A stretch of DNA of 64,000 bases, from positions 1-64,000 of the forward strand of contig CALWPP010000005.1 of assembly GCA_944383455.1 (NCBI GenBank). The letters are read 5' to 3'. Below, piece by piece: positions 28,717 to 52,615 of the stretch; positions within the stretch are counted from its first letter, which is position 1; each line of letters begins with the position of its first letter. The stretch comes from an uncultured Peptostreptococcaceae bacterium. Its GTDB lineage: Bacteria > Bacillota > Clostridia > Peptostreptococcales > Peptostreptococcaceae. A program made the position numbers and the translations under genes. The notes under the pieces were generated by a model. The model made no database searches. It saw only the letters and a program-made list of their open reading frames with translations, and was not told the origin of the DNA.

Positions 28717-29066
28717 TTATACTTAAATATTATTAATAATATAAAAAATATGCGTTGTGCTAGTTAAATATAAATATTAAAAATACTAGATTTATGATGT
28801 ATAAATTTTGATGTATTTAAAATTATGTATAGTAATTTTAATATGTTAAATAAAATAACTAGCACAATAGATAAAAAATATATCATTAATTAATGATAGT
28901 TTTATTAAAAATAATATGATTGTTTTTTATTTTATTTATTACTACACAATAATAATATGTTATAATTTGATTTATAAGTTTAAAATTATTAATATATAAA
29001 ATAGAAATATATAATAAATTACGTAACTTATTACTACGATTTTAAAAGAGGAATTGAGAAAATTTT
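28717..29066. repeat. Intergenic region with 12-bp inverted repeat, possible miniature element
   Basis: No gene is visible. TTGTGCTAGTTA (28755-28766) and its exact reverse complement (28856-28867) bracket 113 bp of very AT-rich sequence, like the ends of a miniature inverted-repeat element. The right arm extends to a 14-nt exact match, in inverse orientation, to 10004-10017. The 13-mer ATTAAAAATACTA (28776-28788) also recurs at 10023. An extended -10 box TGTTATAAT (28958-28966) probably starts transcription of the MazF-like gene. Confidence 0.5.
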
Positions 29067-29804
29067 ATGTCAATATTAAATAAATCAAATTTAAATTTAT
29101 TACTTAAACAAGAAAATGCTAAAACAATTAAATATCACGAAAATATAGAAATGTTAGAGCAATTTTCATATAACAATAATTATTTATTTAACTTTTTAGT
29201 AAAAAACTGCTCTATGCATGAAACTGGTTTAATGATAGGATCTACTGCTAAATATATAGAAATTAAGGACAGATGTTTAAATAATAAACAACCTAGTAAA
29301 TTTATAAACTATCAAAATAAACAAATTGTAATGGTTGAATTAGGTATAAATTATAATAAGTTATCTTATAAGCATCCGTGCGTTGTTTTGGCAAATTTAG
29401 ATGATAGGCTTTTTGTTGTCCCGTGCACATCTCGTAGAGCTAAAAGAGATAAATCAGGAGAGATACGTAGTGGTTATTTAGAGTTTGAAAAGACTGATGG
29501 ATTTGAACATACAACAACTGTAATATTAAAAGATGCCACTTGTATTAATAAAGAACAAGTAATATCTACAATTAAAGAAAATGGTAAATATAAAAAGATA
29601 AGTGATGATGCATTTATAAAAATAGTTAATAAGTTGCATGAAATGTTGTTTAGTTGGCAATATTTTAATTTAAGTAAACTAAGTCGTGAAGTTGAAAATT
29701 TAAAATCAGAAAAATTGATATTAGAAAAAGAAATTGAAATATTAAAATATGAGAAACAAAAAAATGAAAGTGTTACAAAAGAGGTTGCATTAAATTTAGA
29801 ATAA
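29067..29804 (+). CDS. MazF/PemK-like protein with N-terminal extension and coiled coil
   Basis: A 245-residue protein. A region of about 92-200 reads as a MazF/PemK-type fold: KQIVMVELGINYNKLSYKHP, CVVLANLDDRLFVVPCTSR and, further on, TTTVILKDATCINKEQVIS in the place of the usual loop before helix 3. It has about 90 extra N-terminal residues of unknown kind and a C-terminal coiled coil (about 205-240). MazF proteins are mRNA endoribonucleases; whether this one is active cannot be told. No antitoxin protein gene adjoins it. Instead a repeat-containing RNA with its own promoter and terminator lies downstream. GAGGAA sits about 15 nt before the ATG, so translation may be weak. Confidence 0.7.
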   Translation: MSILNKSNLNLLLKQENAKTIKYHENIEMLEQFSYNNNYLFNFLVKNCSMHETGLMIGSTAKYIEIKDRCLNNKQPSKFINYQNKQIVMVELGINYNKLSYKHPCVVLANLDDRLFVVPCTSRRAKRDKSGEIRSGYLEFEKTDGFEHTTTVILKDATCINKEQVISTIKENGKYKKISDDAFIKIVNKLHEMLFSWQYFNLSKLSREVENLKSEKLILEKEIEILKYEKQKNESVTKEVALNLE

Positions 29805-29837
29805 AAATAAATATTTATTTAAGTATAATAAAATTTA

Positions 29838-29866
29838 TTGATTTTTTACAAATTTTATAATATAAT
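29838..29866 (+). promoter_or_regulatory. Sigma-A promoter of the tandem-repeat small RNA
   Basis: TTGATT (29838-29843), a 17-nt spacer and TATAAT (29861-29866). The predicted start near 29873 is just before the first repeat unit, so the RNA can be made independently of the MazF-like gene. Confidence 0.7.
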
Positions 29867-29872
29867 TTACTT

Positions 29873-30000
29873 AAATAGAGAAGGCTAAAGCCATAGTACA
29901 CTAAAAATCTTGTTAGTGTTGAGAAAGAAAAAGGTTAAAACCATAGGCTCTTAAAAAAATGAGCTATTAAAGAAGAGAGATTTTTTGTCTCTCTTTTTTT
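29873..30000 (+). ncRNA. Structured small RNA with two tandem 50-nt repeat units
   Basis: About 128 nt from predicted start to terminator. Two units begin at 29881 (AAGGCTAAAGCCATAG) and 29931 (AAGGTTAAAACCATAG), exactly 50 nt apart. In each, a 3-bp stem closes the loop UAAA; the closing pair changes from C-G to U-A, which keeps pairing. A second hairpin follows in each unit: ACACTAA / TTAGTGT (29898-29919) and GCTC / GAGC (29947-29964). The RNA ends in a strong terminator. It contains no convincing reading frame. It does not match any riboswitch consensus I can recall. It may be an RNA antitoxin for the preceding MazF-like gene, a free-standing regulator, or an unrecognised riboswitch with only a terminated product. 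Confidence 0.65.
29974..30000 (+). terminator. Terminator of the tandem-repeat RNA
   Basis: AGAGAGA / TCTCTCT with a T-rich loop and a run of T residues. Confidence 0.9.
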
Positions 30001-30090: not shown

Positions 30091-30148
30091 TTAATTAATA
30101 TTTAACATTTAGTTAATATTATTTTAATATTTAACATAATTTTAACAT
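30091..30148 (+). promoter_or_regulatory. Pho-box array upstream of the Na/phosphate symporter
   Basis: Seven-base boxes recur every 11 bp: TTAATTA (30091), TTAACAT (30102), TTAATAT (30113), TTAATAT (30124); a second phase has TTAACAT at 30131 and 30142. The consensus TT(A/C)ACA with one-turn spacing is the PhoP/PhoB operator of Firmicutes. It lies after the small-RNA terminator and about 70 nt before the symporter start, so it should induce that gene at low phosphate. Confidence 0.8.
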
Positions 30149-30215
30149 AATAATGTATCGAAATTTGATAAAATACAAATGATAAAATATAAATACTCCA
30201 AGGAGGAAATTTAAA

Positions 30216-46201: not shown

Positions 46202-46660
46202 TTGAGTAAACATTATAAACTAAAAGAATTTGCAGAACTATTGAACGTATCTGTTATAACTTTACAACGTTGGGATAATGATGATAAATTAAAAGTATTC
46301 AGAACTCCTACTAATAGGAGGTACTACACTTATGAACAATATCTTGAATATAAAGGTATTCATAAAAAAGATGATGATAGAAAAATTGTTATTTACACTA
46401 GGGTTTCAACTTCTAATCAAAAAGATGATTTAAAAAATCAAGTAGACTTTCTTAGACAATATGCAAATGCTAAAGGCATAATAATAGATGAAGTCATTGA
46501 GGATTATGGAAGTGGGTTTAATAATGAAAGTCTTTTACAACAAGAAGAATTAGTTCAAGATATAATTTCAATACTTCATATATTTAGTAGTCGTATATAT
46601 GGTTTAAGAAAATACAAGAAAAAAATTAGAAAGGATAAAGAAGTTGAAAAGAGCCTATAA
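46202..46660 (+). pseudogene. tnpA: IS607 TnpA serine recombinase, internally deleted
   Basis: A 152-residue product. The MerR-like helix-turn-helix (KEFAELLNVSVITLQRWDND) and start of the resolvase domain with catalytic Ser in VIYTRVSTSNQKDDL are present, then EDYGSGF jumps straight to NNESLLQQEELVQDIISIL. Full IS607 TnpA has about 50-60 more residues here, with the conserved KDR...RFG region; copy 2 keeps part of them (WFERFLEKFNIKIIVV before NNESL). The deletion is in frame, so a protein is made but lacks catalytic residues and should be inactive. It overlaps tnpB by 17 nt. TTG at 46202 or GTG at 46193 may be the start. Confidence 0.8.
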
Positions 46661-47807
46661 GATAGAGATTAATCCTACTAATGAACAAAAGACTAAAATA
46701 CATCAAACTATTGGTGTTAGTAGATTTATATATAATTTCTATATATCACATAATAAAGAAGTTTATGAAAAAGAAGGTAAATTTGTAAGTGGTATGGATT
46801 TTTCAAAATGGTTAAATAACGAATATATACCTAATAATCAAGAAATGAAATGGATTAAAAATGTATCGTCAAAAGCTACTAAGAAAGCTATTATGAATGC
46901 AGAAAAAGCATTTAAAAACTTCTTTAAAGGGAAATCTAAATTTCCTAAATTTAAGAAAAAGAAAAATCAAAATATTAAAGCATATTTCCCTAAAAATAAT
47001 AAAACAGACTTAACTATTGAAAGGCATAGAATTAAAATACCTACTATTGGTTGGGTAAGATTTAAAGAATATGGATATATACCTACAAATTCAATAGTAA
47101 AAAGTGCAACAGTAAGTCAAAAAGCCAATAGATATTATATATCAATATTAGTTGAGGAAGAATATAAAAAAGTGCCTATACCTACAAATGAAGGAATAGG
47201 AATTGATTTGGGATTAAAAGAATTTGCTGTATGTTCAAATGGTAAAAAATTTAAAAATATAAACAAAACCTCTACTGTTAAAAAAGTAGAAAAGAAATTA
47301 AAAAGAGAACAAAGAACACTTTCAAGGAAATATGAGAGTTTAAAGATAAGAAATAAAAATATAAAGGAAGGAGAAGCTACTCGTCAAAATATCCAAAAAC
47401 AAGTAATCAAAGTACAAAAACTTCATCAAAGATTAGTGAATATAAGAAATGATTATATTAATAAAACTGTAAATGAGATAGTGAAAACCAAACCATCTTA
47501 TATAGTTATAGAAGATTTAAATGTTAAAGGAATGATGAAGAATAAGCATTTATCAAAAGCCATTTCAAATCAAAAGTTTTTTGAATTTAGAGCTAAATTA
47601 ACTACTAAATGTAAACAAAATAATATAGAAATTAGAGTAGTTGATAGATTTTATCCATCAAGTAAGACTTGTAGTAGTTGTGGTGAGATTAAAAAAGATT
47701 TAAAGCTATCGGATAGAATTTATAAATGTAGATGTGGACTTACTATAGATAGAGATTTAAATGCGAGTATTAATCTAAAAAATGCTAAAAAATATAAGAT
47801 AGCTTAA
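46644..47807 (+). CDS. tnpB: TnpB RNA-guided nuclease, IS607-associated, copy 1
   Basis: A 387-residue TnpB, the compact ancestor-type relative of Cas12. The RuvC residues are visible: Asp in GIDLGLKEFAV (near 188), Glu in IEDLNVKGMM (near 290) and Asp in DRDLNASINL (near 371). A four-Cys zinc finger (CSSCG ... CRCG) lies between the last two. The N-terminal helix-turn-helix and wedge regions look complete. It should form a complex with the RNA transcribed from the element 3-prime end and cut DNA at the empty donor site. TTG start inside the end of tnpA. Confidence 0.92.
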   Translation: MKRAYKIEINPTNEQKTKIHQTIGVSRFIYNFYISHNKEVYEKEGKFVSGMDFSKWLNNEYIPNNQEMKWIKNVSSKATKKAIMNAEKAFKNFFKGKSKFPKFKKKKNQNIKAYFPKNNKTDLTIERHRIKIPTIGWVRFKEYGYIPTNSIVKSATVSQKANRYYISILVEEEYKKVPIPTNEGIGIDLGLKEFAVCSNGKKFKNINKTSTVKKVEKKLKREQRTLSRKYESLKIRNKNIKEGEATRQNIQKQVIKVQKLHQRLVNIRNDYINKTVNEIVKTKPSYIVIEDLNVKGMMKNKHLSKAISNQKFFEFRAKLTTKCKQNNIEIRVVDRFYPSSKTCSSCGEIKKDLKLSDRIYKCRCGLTIDRDLNASINLKNAKKYKIA

Positions 47808-47955
47808 CTAAAAAAGCACTTATATATGTACGGAGGGCTAACTTCGGAATTTAAGCCTTTGGAGAACCAAATCGTAGTAGCTTAGGCAAGGCGAGGTTCA
47901 TTGAAGAAGGAATAATCTCAATATGGATATATTTGACCATATTTTGAGTAGCAGG
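47808..47955 (+). ncRNA. Candidate omega (reRNA) scaffold at the right end of IS607 copy 1
   Basis: Noncoding sequence after tnpB that is largely identical to the region after tnpB in copy 2, including TACGGAGGGCTAACTTCGGA and CGTAGTAGCTTAGGCAAGGC. It can form several hairpins, one close to the element end (CTCAATATGG / CCATATTTTGAG). TnpB guide RNAs end at the right element border, so the guide would be the trkH start region beginning ATTACGACTTGAAAAATATT. The true 5-prime end may lie inside tnpB. Confidence 0.6.
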
Positions 47956-50003: not shown

Positions 50004-50207
50004 GATTGGTTTGAAAGATTTTTAGAGAAGTTTAATATTAAAATTATAGTAGTTAACAATGAAAGTCTTTCACTCCAAGAAGAGTTAGTACAAGACATAA
50101 TATCAATACTTCATATATTTAGTTGTCGTATATATGGGCTTAGAAAATATAAGAAAAAGATTAGAGAGGATAAAGAAGTTGAAAAGAGCATACAAGATAG
50201 AAATTAA
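50004..50207 (+). pseudogene. tnpA: 3-prime remnant of IS607 tnpA (copy 2)
   Basis: A frame of 67 codons that begins right after the trkA stop: DWFERFLEKFNIKIIVV, then NNESLSLQEELVQDIISILH and IYGLRKYKKKI. It matches the last part of the tnpA of copy 1 but has lost the whole N-terminus, including the catalytic Ser. It keeps residues that copy 1 has lost. It overlaps the start of tnpB. Confidence 0.85.
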
Positions 50208-51342
50208 TCCTACTAATGAACAAAAAATAAAAATAAATCAAACTATTGGTGTTAGTAGATTTATATACAATTTCTATATAGCACATAATAAAGAAGTTTA
50301 TGAGAAAGAAGGTACTTTTGTAACAGGATTTGATTTTTCTGTATGGTTAAATAATGAATATATTCCAAATAATCAAGATAAAGAGTGGATTAAGGGGGTG
50401 TCTTCAAAAGCTACAAAACAAGCTATTATGAATGCAGAAAAAGCATTTAAAAACTTTTTTAAAGAGAAAGCAAAATTTCCTAAATTTAAGAAAAAGAAAA
50501 ATCAAAATGTTAAAGCATATTTTCCAAAGAACAACAAAACTGACTTAACTATTAAAAGGCATAGAGTAAAAATACCTACTATTGGTTGGGTAAGATTTAA
50601 AGAGTTTGGATATATTCCAATCAATTCAATAGTAAAAAGTGCAACGATAAGTCAAAAAGCTAATAGGTACTATATATCAATATTAGTTGAAGAAGATAGT
50701 AAAGAAATACCTAAACTAACAAATGAAGGTATAGGTATCGATTTAGGAATAAAAGAATTTGCAATATGTTCAAATGGGAAAAAATTTAAAAACATAAACA
50801 AAACATCTACTGTAAAAAAAGTAGAAAAGAAATTAAAAAGAGAACAAAGAAAACTTTCGAGAAAATATGAGAGTTTAAAAATAAGCAATAAAAATATAAA
50901 GAAAGGAGAAGCTACTCGTCAAAATATCCAAAAGCAAGTAGTCAAAGTACAAAAACTTCATCAAAGATTAGTAAATATAAGAACAGATTATATTAATAAA
51001 ACTATAAATAAGATAGTGAAAACTAAGCCATCTTATATAGTAATAGAAGATTTAAATATTAAAGGAATGATGAAGAATAAGCATTTATCAAAAGCCATAG
51101 TAAGTCAAAAGTTTTTTGAATTTAGAGCTAAATTAACTGCTAAATGCAAACAAAATAACATAGAGCTTAGGGTGGTTGATAGATTTTATCCATCAAGTAA
51201 AACTTGTAGTAATTGTGGAAATATAAAAAAAGATTTAAAACTATCGGATAGAATTTATAAATGTAGTTGTGGTTTAAGTATAGATAGAGATTTAAACGCA
51301 AGTATAAATCTAAAAAATGCGAAAAAATATAAGATAGCTTAA
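50179..51342 (+). CDS. tnpB: TnpB RNA-guided nuclease, IS607-associated, copy 2
   Basis: A 387-residue TnpB nearly identical to copy 1. RuvC residues stay intact (GIDLGIKEFAI, IEDLNIKGMM, DRDLNASINL) and the zinc finger is CSNCG ... CSCG. Differences from copy 1 are scattered and mostly conservative (for example SVWLNNEYIP for SKWLNNEYIP), which suggests retained function. The TTG start corresponds to that of copy 1; an in-frame ATG at 50134 lies within the tnpA remnant and is not used by the family. Confidence 0.92.
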   Translation: MKRAYKIEINPTNEQKIKINQTIGVSRFIYNFYIAHNKEVYEKEGTFVTGFDFSVWLNNEYIPNNQDKEWIKGVSSKATKQAIMNAEKAFKNFFKEKAKFPKFKKKKNQNVKAYFPKNNKTDLTIKRHRVKIPTIGWVRFKEFGYIPINSIVKSATISQKANRYYISILVEEDSKEIPKLTNEGIGIDLGIKEFAICSNGKKFKNINKTSTVKKVEKKLKREQRKLSRKYESLKISNKNIKKGEATRQNIQKQVVKVQKLHQRLVNIRTDYINKTINKIVKTKPSYIVIEDLNIKGMMKNKHLSKAIVSQKFFEFRAKLTAKCKQNNIELRVVDRFYPSSKTCSNCGNIKKDLKLSDRIYKCSCGLSIDRDLNASINLKNAKKYKIA

Positions 51343-51398: not shown

Positions 51399-51551
51399 CT
51401 AAAAAAAGCACTTATATATGTACGGAGGGCTAACTTCGGAATTTACGCCTTTGGAGAACCATATAAAATCGTAGTAGCTTAGGCAAGGCGAGGTTCAATG
51501 AAAAAGGAATTTTCTCAATATTGGTATAATTGAACCTATTTTGAGTAGCAG
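51399..51551 (+). ncRNA. Candidate omega (reRNA) scaffold at the right end of IS607 copy 2
   Basis: Counterpart of the conserved region after the first tnpB, with the same TACGGAGGGCTAACTTCGGA and CGTAGTAGCTTAGGCAAGGC blocks and a similar terminal hairpin (CTCAATATTGG / CCTATTTTGAG). The guide would begin TAATTTATG, at the start of rlmB. A 56-bp stretch absent from copy 1 separates it from tnpB (51343-51398), flanked by the direct repeat CTAAAAAAA. Confidence 0.55.
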
Positions 51552-52343: not shown

Positions 52344-52383
52344 ATCTATTTAAAAGAAGTAATATATGATATAATAAAAATAA

Positions 52384-52615
52384 AAACTATGAAAGAGAAA
52401 AGTATTTTAAATTAACTTATCACAGAGAAGAATACATTGCTGAGAGTATTTTATAAGAATTTAAAAGAAGTTCACTCTGGAGTTTCAATGCTGAAATTAT
52501 AGTAGGCTTTGACGTTAAACGCGTTAAGTTAATTGAGGTGGCAGAATTTTTGCTACTAGGGTGGTACCGCGAATACAGTCTTTCGTCCCTAGATTTGGGA
52601 TTGAAGGGCTTTTTT
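52384..52615 (+). promoter_or_regulatory. T-box leader of pheS (tRNA-Phe sensing)
   Basis: The T-box sequence AGGGTGGTACCGCG lies at 52558-52571. The start carries a GA-rich Stem I element (GAAAGAGAAAAGTA). A UUC phenylalanine specifier is likely at 52471-52473, followed by A as usual. The terminator AGTCTTTC-GTCCC / GGGAT-TGAAGGGCT with T run is at 52577-52615. Uncharged tRNA-Phe should stabilise the antiterminator and turn on pheST. A TATAAT at 52370-52375 fits as -10. Confidence 0.93.

Follow-up and report, generated by a model that had tools for sequence, protein, structure and literature searches.

Does the lone PemK/MazF-like toxin gene of an uncultured Peptostreptococcaceae bacterium of the gut have an antitoxin and, if so, of what kind? 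The gene lies in the window analyzed here, the 64,000-nt stretch of contig CALWPP010000005.1 (GCA_944383455.1). A first-pass annotation had proposed a type III-like toxin-antitoxin module in which an RNA, encoded downstream of the toxin gene and transcribed from its own promoter, takes the part of the antitoxin. This proposal is supported by the predicted fold of the protein and by some 70 downstream regions of related genes, which are enriched over controls for the features concerned. Of the two findings that the first-pass annotation had named as contrary to it, regular absence of the RNA from homologues and lack of a MazF fold, neither was obtained. We consider the locus (Table 1) to be probably, at roughly two chances in three, a mobile type III-like toxin-antitoxin or phage-defense module whose antitoxin RNA lies downstream and has a promoter of its own.

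Table 1. Coordinates of the toxin gene, the RNA unit and the inserted segment in the window
Feature	Position	Strand	Basis
Long PemK/MazF-like toxin gene, 245 aa	29067..29804	+	ORF, AlphaFold2 model, hhalign, Foldseek
N-terminal helices (residues 6-72), common to family	29082..29282	+	Model and family alignments
MazF-like beta barrel (residues 86-168)	29322..29570	+	Model, Foldseek
C-terminal long helix/coiled coil (residues 180-244)	29604..29798	+	Model
RNA promoter TTGATT-17-TATAAT, 10/12	29838..29866	+	Motif scan; homologues with same arrangement
Predicted noncoding RNA, ~128 nt	29873..30000	+	5' end inferred from -10 element; fold
Repeat core 1 AAGGCTAAAGCCATAG, small hairpin 29883-29892	29881..29896	+	Fold, repeat test
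Second hairpin of unit 1 (ACACTAA...TTAGTGT)	29898..29919	+	Fold
Repeat core 2 AAGGTTAAAACCATAG, small hairpin 29933-29942	29931..29946	+	Fold, repeat test
Second hairpin of unit 2 (GCTCT...GAGC)	29946..29965	+	Fold
Intrinsic terminator of RNA	29969..29999	+	Terminator scan
Inserted segment, ~1.4 kb, MITE + toxin gene + RNA	28717..~30095		Empty site in relatives; edges approximate

By sequence the window protein has no match in Pfam or NCBIfam, a PDB sequence search assigned it to no family, and PADLOC returned only weak coiled-coil type matches. With 29 relatives as input, AlphaFold2 gave a model (mean pLDDT 85) that matches S. aureus MazF (4mzp) in Foldseek (E 1.2e-5, probability 1.00); B. 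subtilis MazF (1ne8) is also among the matches, and the type III toxin CptN (4rmo) ranks 18th in the list. In a comparison by hhalign the protein matches the PemK-like family (probability 95.7%, E 8.7e-9), and the evidence for a PemK/MazF domain is of these two kinds only, profile and fold. The model thus confirms the predicted MazF fold that had been proposed for the product of this single gene, and places it nearer MazF than CptN by fold score. As a predicted MazF-fold endoribonuclease, the protein has the type of fold seen in type III toxins.

Searches with the window protein alone retrieved no relatives from phages, plasmids, viral contigs or genome contigs. A weak match in a family genome (L010), itself recognized by Pfam PemK_toxin (PF02452, E 1e-8), formed the bridge to its protein family, and from there relatives were found in phages, plasmids, genomes and viral contigs. 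The 71 non-redundant homologues (representatives at 80% identity) derive from plasmids, phages, satellites and genomes; they were collected by similarity to mobile-element proteins, which weights the sample toward phages and plasmids. Four loci in which the motif filter found no ORF (L226, L227, L236 and L238) were left out of the analysis, and one further locus (L240) is a frame-broken copy. Some homologues score with PF02452, and the family shares the core G-x-N-(x)G-x-E...H-x-x-V-V...P-(L)-S/T-S; in a tree the window protein is placed, weakly, beside a Fusobacterium plasmid protein. It belongs, as a divergent representative, to this family of long 'orphan' PemK/MazF proteins carried by plasmids, phages and satellites. 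The N-terminal domain, which the first-pass annotation took to be an extra for such toxins, is present in the model as helices, but family alignments identify these as a feature of the whole family and not as peculiar to this locus. The earlier reading that no protein antitoxin accompanies the gene holds, since the ORF list contains no other plausible ORF between the toxin gene and the flanking genes, and none is conserved in the homologues: a small upstream ORF is present in 19 of the 69 representatives, with a largest homologous group of two.

Behind the toxin gene, a promoter and a terminator delimit the separate transcription unit that had been predicted. The promoter is the joint best of 20 promoter-like sites in the region, where chance predicts 15.8 ± 4.2 sites, and is therefore weak evidence by itself; terminator-like sites number two, as against 0.2 expected. 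Counted from the toxin stop codon, the -35 element lies at 33 nt and the terminator ends at 197 nt, a wider spacing than usual in the family, where the medians are 10 and 127 nt. The predicted transcript folds into four small hairpins plus the terminator, with a fold z-score of -3.1, or -1.9 without the terminator. Of the two 50-nt repeat units described previously, the 50-nt spacing and the shared fold stand, whereas sequence identity is confined to a 16-nt core (14/16 positions; p 0.025 versus dinucleotide shuffles), outside which the units are alike in fold and unlike in sequence. The two mismatches in the core amount to a compensatory change in the small stem, from C-G to U-A, that keeps the pairing. 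A repeat search at default settings did not list the 50-nt-spaced repeat, no Rfam family matches the RNA, no coding potential was found in it, and its sequence has no relatives in the 71 family genomes or in viral contigs; a DNA search of the family genomes with the RNA, which gave mainly terminator look-alikes (e.g. L013), was discarded. By these comparisons the RNA sequence appears private to the window genome, and what is conserved is the arrangement. Taken alone, the evidence from the window is suggestive, not convincing.

An AT-rich inverted repeat, ATTTAAGT...ACTTAAAT (29816-29877), surrounds the RNA promoter, with the -10 element in its right arm. In L077, likewise, both hairpins lie within an outer stem that overlaps the -10 element. 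The inverted repeat around the promoter may serve as an operator, or it may be a structure formed in the read-through transcript.

The arrangement was examined in 70 downstream regions, comprising the window and non-redundant homologues (a few representatives being partial or broken ORFs), with 110 neighboring genes of the same loci and 29 canonical EndoA/MazF loci as controls. A promoter scoring at least 10/12 follows the stop codon in 32 of the 70 regions (5/110 neighboring genes), a terminator in 48 (16/110), and a sigma-A promoter with a terminator after it in 28, compared with 2/110 neighboring genes and 0/29 canonical loci. Tandem repeats at p ≤ 0.005 are present in 17/70 regions, as against 2/110 and 0/29 in the respective controls; at p ≤ 0.05 the count is only 25/70, most homologues failing the strict repeat test singly, perhaps on account of stem variation. 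Fisher tests of these downstream enrichments gave p values between 2e-13 and 2e-6. The median fold z-score is -3.75 downstream of the 70 genes and -0.68 for the 110 controls (MWU p 1.4e-14), and for the 200 nt that precede the homologue genes it is -0.76. Canonical EndoA/MazF genes also score low downstream (-2.7), from their terminators; the fold z-score alone is therefore not taken as proof, and its use as the sole criterion was dropped. In homologues with a strong promoter, the -35 element lies a median of 10 nt past the stop codon, and no terminator precedes the promoter in 21/21 cases. Read by eye, short hairpins and terminators follow nearly all homologues, and genomes found later show the same pattern (e.g. 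L229 and L228, repeats at p 0.005). The association of long MazF-like genes with a downstream RNA is thus well supported, with promoter, hairpin repeats and terminator strongly enriched behind the homologues.

The hairpins differ greatly in sequence among relatives. Within the repeat pairs of L143 (ACTGAGGGATTTACTCCCAC and ACTGAGTGCATTACGCACAC) and L193 (AGAGCTCCTAGCGAGCAAT and AGAGCCCTTTACGGGCAAT) the stem is altered on both sides while loop and flanks are kept; in L063, an S. aureus plasmid, ATTTCCGGTAACCAATCCGGCT occurs twice downstream of the toxin gene. Across nine Lachnospiraceae/streptococcal loci RNAalifold finds the second hairpin unprompted, with three of four pairs changed on both sides. 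Its covariation is 0.882, compared with 0.332 for shuffled alignments (0/500 as high), and all slid controls are lower; the hairpin structure came out of the very alignment on which it was scored, which tilts the slid comparison in its favor. The first hairpin differs in loop length in alignments A8 and A9 and was left unaligned by MAFFT, and in seven Bacillaceae loci most predicted pairs fall in the terminator, owing to hairpin stems that vary too much for alignment.

Copy number of the units also differs between loci. Three consecutive RNA units follow one toxin gene in L010 (900-1315, minus strand), each with ATTATGTGAGA before the hairpin and AGTG after it; Geobacillus virus E3 (L054) has this motif as well. 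Among near-identical staphylococcal loci, L127 has two repeat copies, and L135 and L136 have a single copy together with an interrupted toxin ORF.

The great variation in hairpin sequence would also suit an RNA that belongs to the system in another capacity, as a guide, licence or trigger of the nuclease, a phage sensor, or a decoy degraded on infection. TnpB and Cas13 work with guide RNAs, and AbiF-type RNA partners have been related to the evolution of Cas13 (PMC12373285). We regard such a role as improbable: neither a variable spacer-like segment nor a pairing target was seen, the RNA partners of the MazF-fold relatives ToxN and CptN are antitoxins, and two short repeats with covarying stems fit protein binding. 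It is decidedly improbable that the RNA, as a processed 3' UTR or an antisense-type sRNA, regulates expression of the toxin without binding the protein. That the RNA follows the gene immediately and has no terminator ahead of it agrees with this explanation, but a same-strand promoter of its own, tandem units and covarying hairpins would be needless for a plain 3' UTR or terminator, and the 3' ends of canonical MazF genes have no promoter, units or hairpins.

The toxin gene and the RNA sit between an FAD-dependent dehydrogenase gene and an Na/Pi cotransporter gene, which adjoin with a gap of ~130 nt in a genome of the same genus (L017) and in further family genomes (L018, L020-L025). Because relatives of the same family have this empty site, the segment (Table 1) is an insertion. 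No homologue of the window toxin protein was found in the same-genus genome, and the protein is absent from nearly all relatives. Among 394 genomes of the order, 12 have a match at E 1e-10, several of the matches being short canonical proteins. A chance neighborhood of a PemK-like gene and an unrelated small RNA would account for an RNA sequence private to this genome and for the modest statistics of the window RNA, yet is very improbable, as the arrangement recurs behind homologues far above controls and both gene and RNA lie within one inserted segment.

A MITE-like element of ~115-125 bp, bounded by 12-bp terminal inverted repeats (TTGTGCTAGTTA and TAACTAGCACAA), occupies 28748-28875, and at least eight copies (71-100% identity) occur in the same genome. 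TTAACA-type direct repeats at 30096-30151, ahead of the Na/Pi cotransporter gene, are kept in all related genomes looked at and resemble a phosphate-regulator box. Elsewhere in the window, two RAGATH-18 RNAs (47856-47912 and 51448-51509) each lie just downstream of an OrfB/TnpB-type gene (46644-47807, preceded by an IS607-type resolvase gene, and 50134-51342); they are IS607 TnpB guide RNAs of the kind reported in PMC11061315. A T-box leader (Rfam RF00230, 146 bits) is located at 52380-52593.

The MazF-like antiphage gene Sma, of S. aureus SaPIpT1028 and nuSa-alpha, is described as acting alone (PMC12409344), with no RNA partner named in the accounts consulted. L059 is presumably Sma, as the PT1028 record yielded no other homologue; it belongs to the same family as the window protein (~21% identity), and two hairpins and then a terminator lie downstream of it. 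The putative RNA beside L059 argues against lone-protein action of Sma. In the literature found, whose coverage excluded most subscription journals, including that of the original Sma paper, no RNA partner is described for these proteins. Least credible is the view that the window protein is a housekeeping or single-protein defense enzyme needing no antitoxin, for which the published description of Sma (PMC12409344) speaks, since a protein missing from nearly all relatives is not a housekeeping one and the SaPIpT1028 homologue likewise has hairpins and a terminator behind it.

Rfam sau-63 (RF02394) aligns over its whole length to the RNA downstream of three staphylococcal homologues (L127, L142 and L152), with scores of 40-52 bits that fall short of the gathering score, 100; the window RNA, unlike these, does not match it. 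Sau-63 is a Northern-confirmed S. aureus RNA of ~100 nt from the pathogenicity island SaPIn2 (PMC3053349). Matches to Spy779816 were set aside, being on the other strand and farther downstream.

Type III systems have the RNA upstream of the toxin on a shared transcript (PMC12373285). The present locus resembles ToxIN, CptIN and TenpIN in its MazF-like fold, short tandem RNA repeats, lack of a protein antitoxin and location on mobile elements. It differs in that the RNA is downstream with its own promoter just past the toxin stop codon, the terminator comes after the toxin gene and not before it, there are about two hairpin units (in the window with only the 16-nt core repeated), and the protein has N-terminal helices. 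An upstream RNA under one promoter, with a terminator between RNA and toxin gene, is not found here, and the locus is not to be filed as a ToxIN-type member because gene order and promoter arrangement depart from the usual definition. AbiF, a toxic RNase neutralized by a small RNA of the abiF motif in a type III-like system (RCd22 in C. difficile), is similar in that the RNA has two repeated hairpin motifs and occurs in mobile elements, and differs in that AbiF is a HEPN protein and its RNA lies upstream on a shared promoter (PMC12373285). With the type II systems MazEF and PemIK the locus shares the toxin domain fold, together with PF02452 in some homologues of the family; unlike in those systems, no conserved MazE/PemI-type antitoxin gene is present, and in the window there is no protein antitoxin beside the toxin, whereas canonical EndoA genes lack the RNA. 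The Rfam pemK RNA (RF02913) matches neither the window nor 13 homologue loci and was rejected, the likeness being one of name only: three inspected copies have no adjoining PemK-like gene. In family genomes (L066-L068) the neighbors of RF02913 are recombinase/integrase and sigma-factor-like genes, and the 3 kb inspected include no PemK-like gene.

In the RNA-antitoxin mechanism that we favor, the toxin would be an endoribonuclease of MazF fold that carries a helical domain at its N-terminus and lacks a protein antitoxin, and the small structured RNA directly behind its gene would be the antitoxin. The promoter just past the toxin stop codon would make the RNA in excess, and toxin transcripts would also read into it because no terminator separates the two. 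The RNA, composed of two repeated hairpin units and ending in its own terminator, may bind and silence the toxin through these units as an RNA-protein complex, by analogy with ToxI, CptI and abiF RNA; an RNA antitoxin has precedents in ToxN, CptN and AbiF and their partner RNAs (PMC12373285). Phage infection or loss of the element would halt RNA synthesis, whereupon the RNA would decay and the freed toxin would cut RNA. We infer the antitoxin action of the RNA, and likewise toxicity, RNA binding, RNA processing and the trigger. An RNA antitoxin is the most economical reading of a MazF fold, no protein partner, a tandem RNA, a promoter suited to excess and a mobile distribution.

The presence of a similar RNA behind most of about 70 distant toxins of mobile elements suggests a widespread system of toxin plus RNA antitoxin. 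We would put the chances at a little better than even that this is an undescribed RNA-antitoxin defense family with a MazF-type toxin, spread through Bacillota and Fusobacteria and their phages, plasmids and satellites, which includes Sma and gives Sau-63-type RNAs a function. If so, Sma would not be a single-protein system, and its tolerance by the cell would be explained, while a known and hitherto unexplained S. aureus RNA would gain a function. Many 'type II PemK/MazF toxins' annotated as orphans on phages, satellites and plasmids would prove to be mis-filed, with an RNA antitoxin encoded behind them. A type II toxin, MazF, would be joined to the type III logic of an RNA antitoxin, suggesting that RNA antitoxins came about more than once on the MazF fold.
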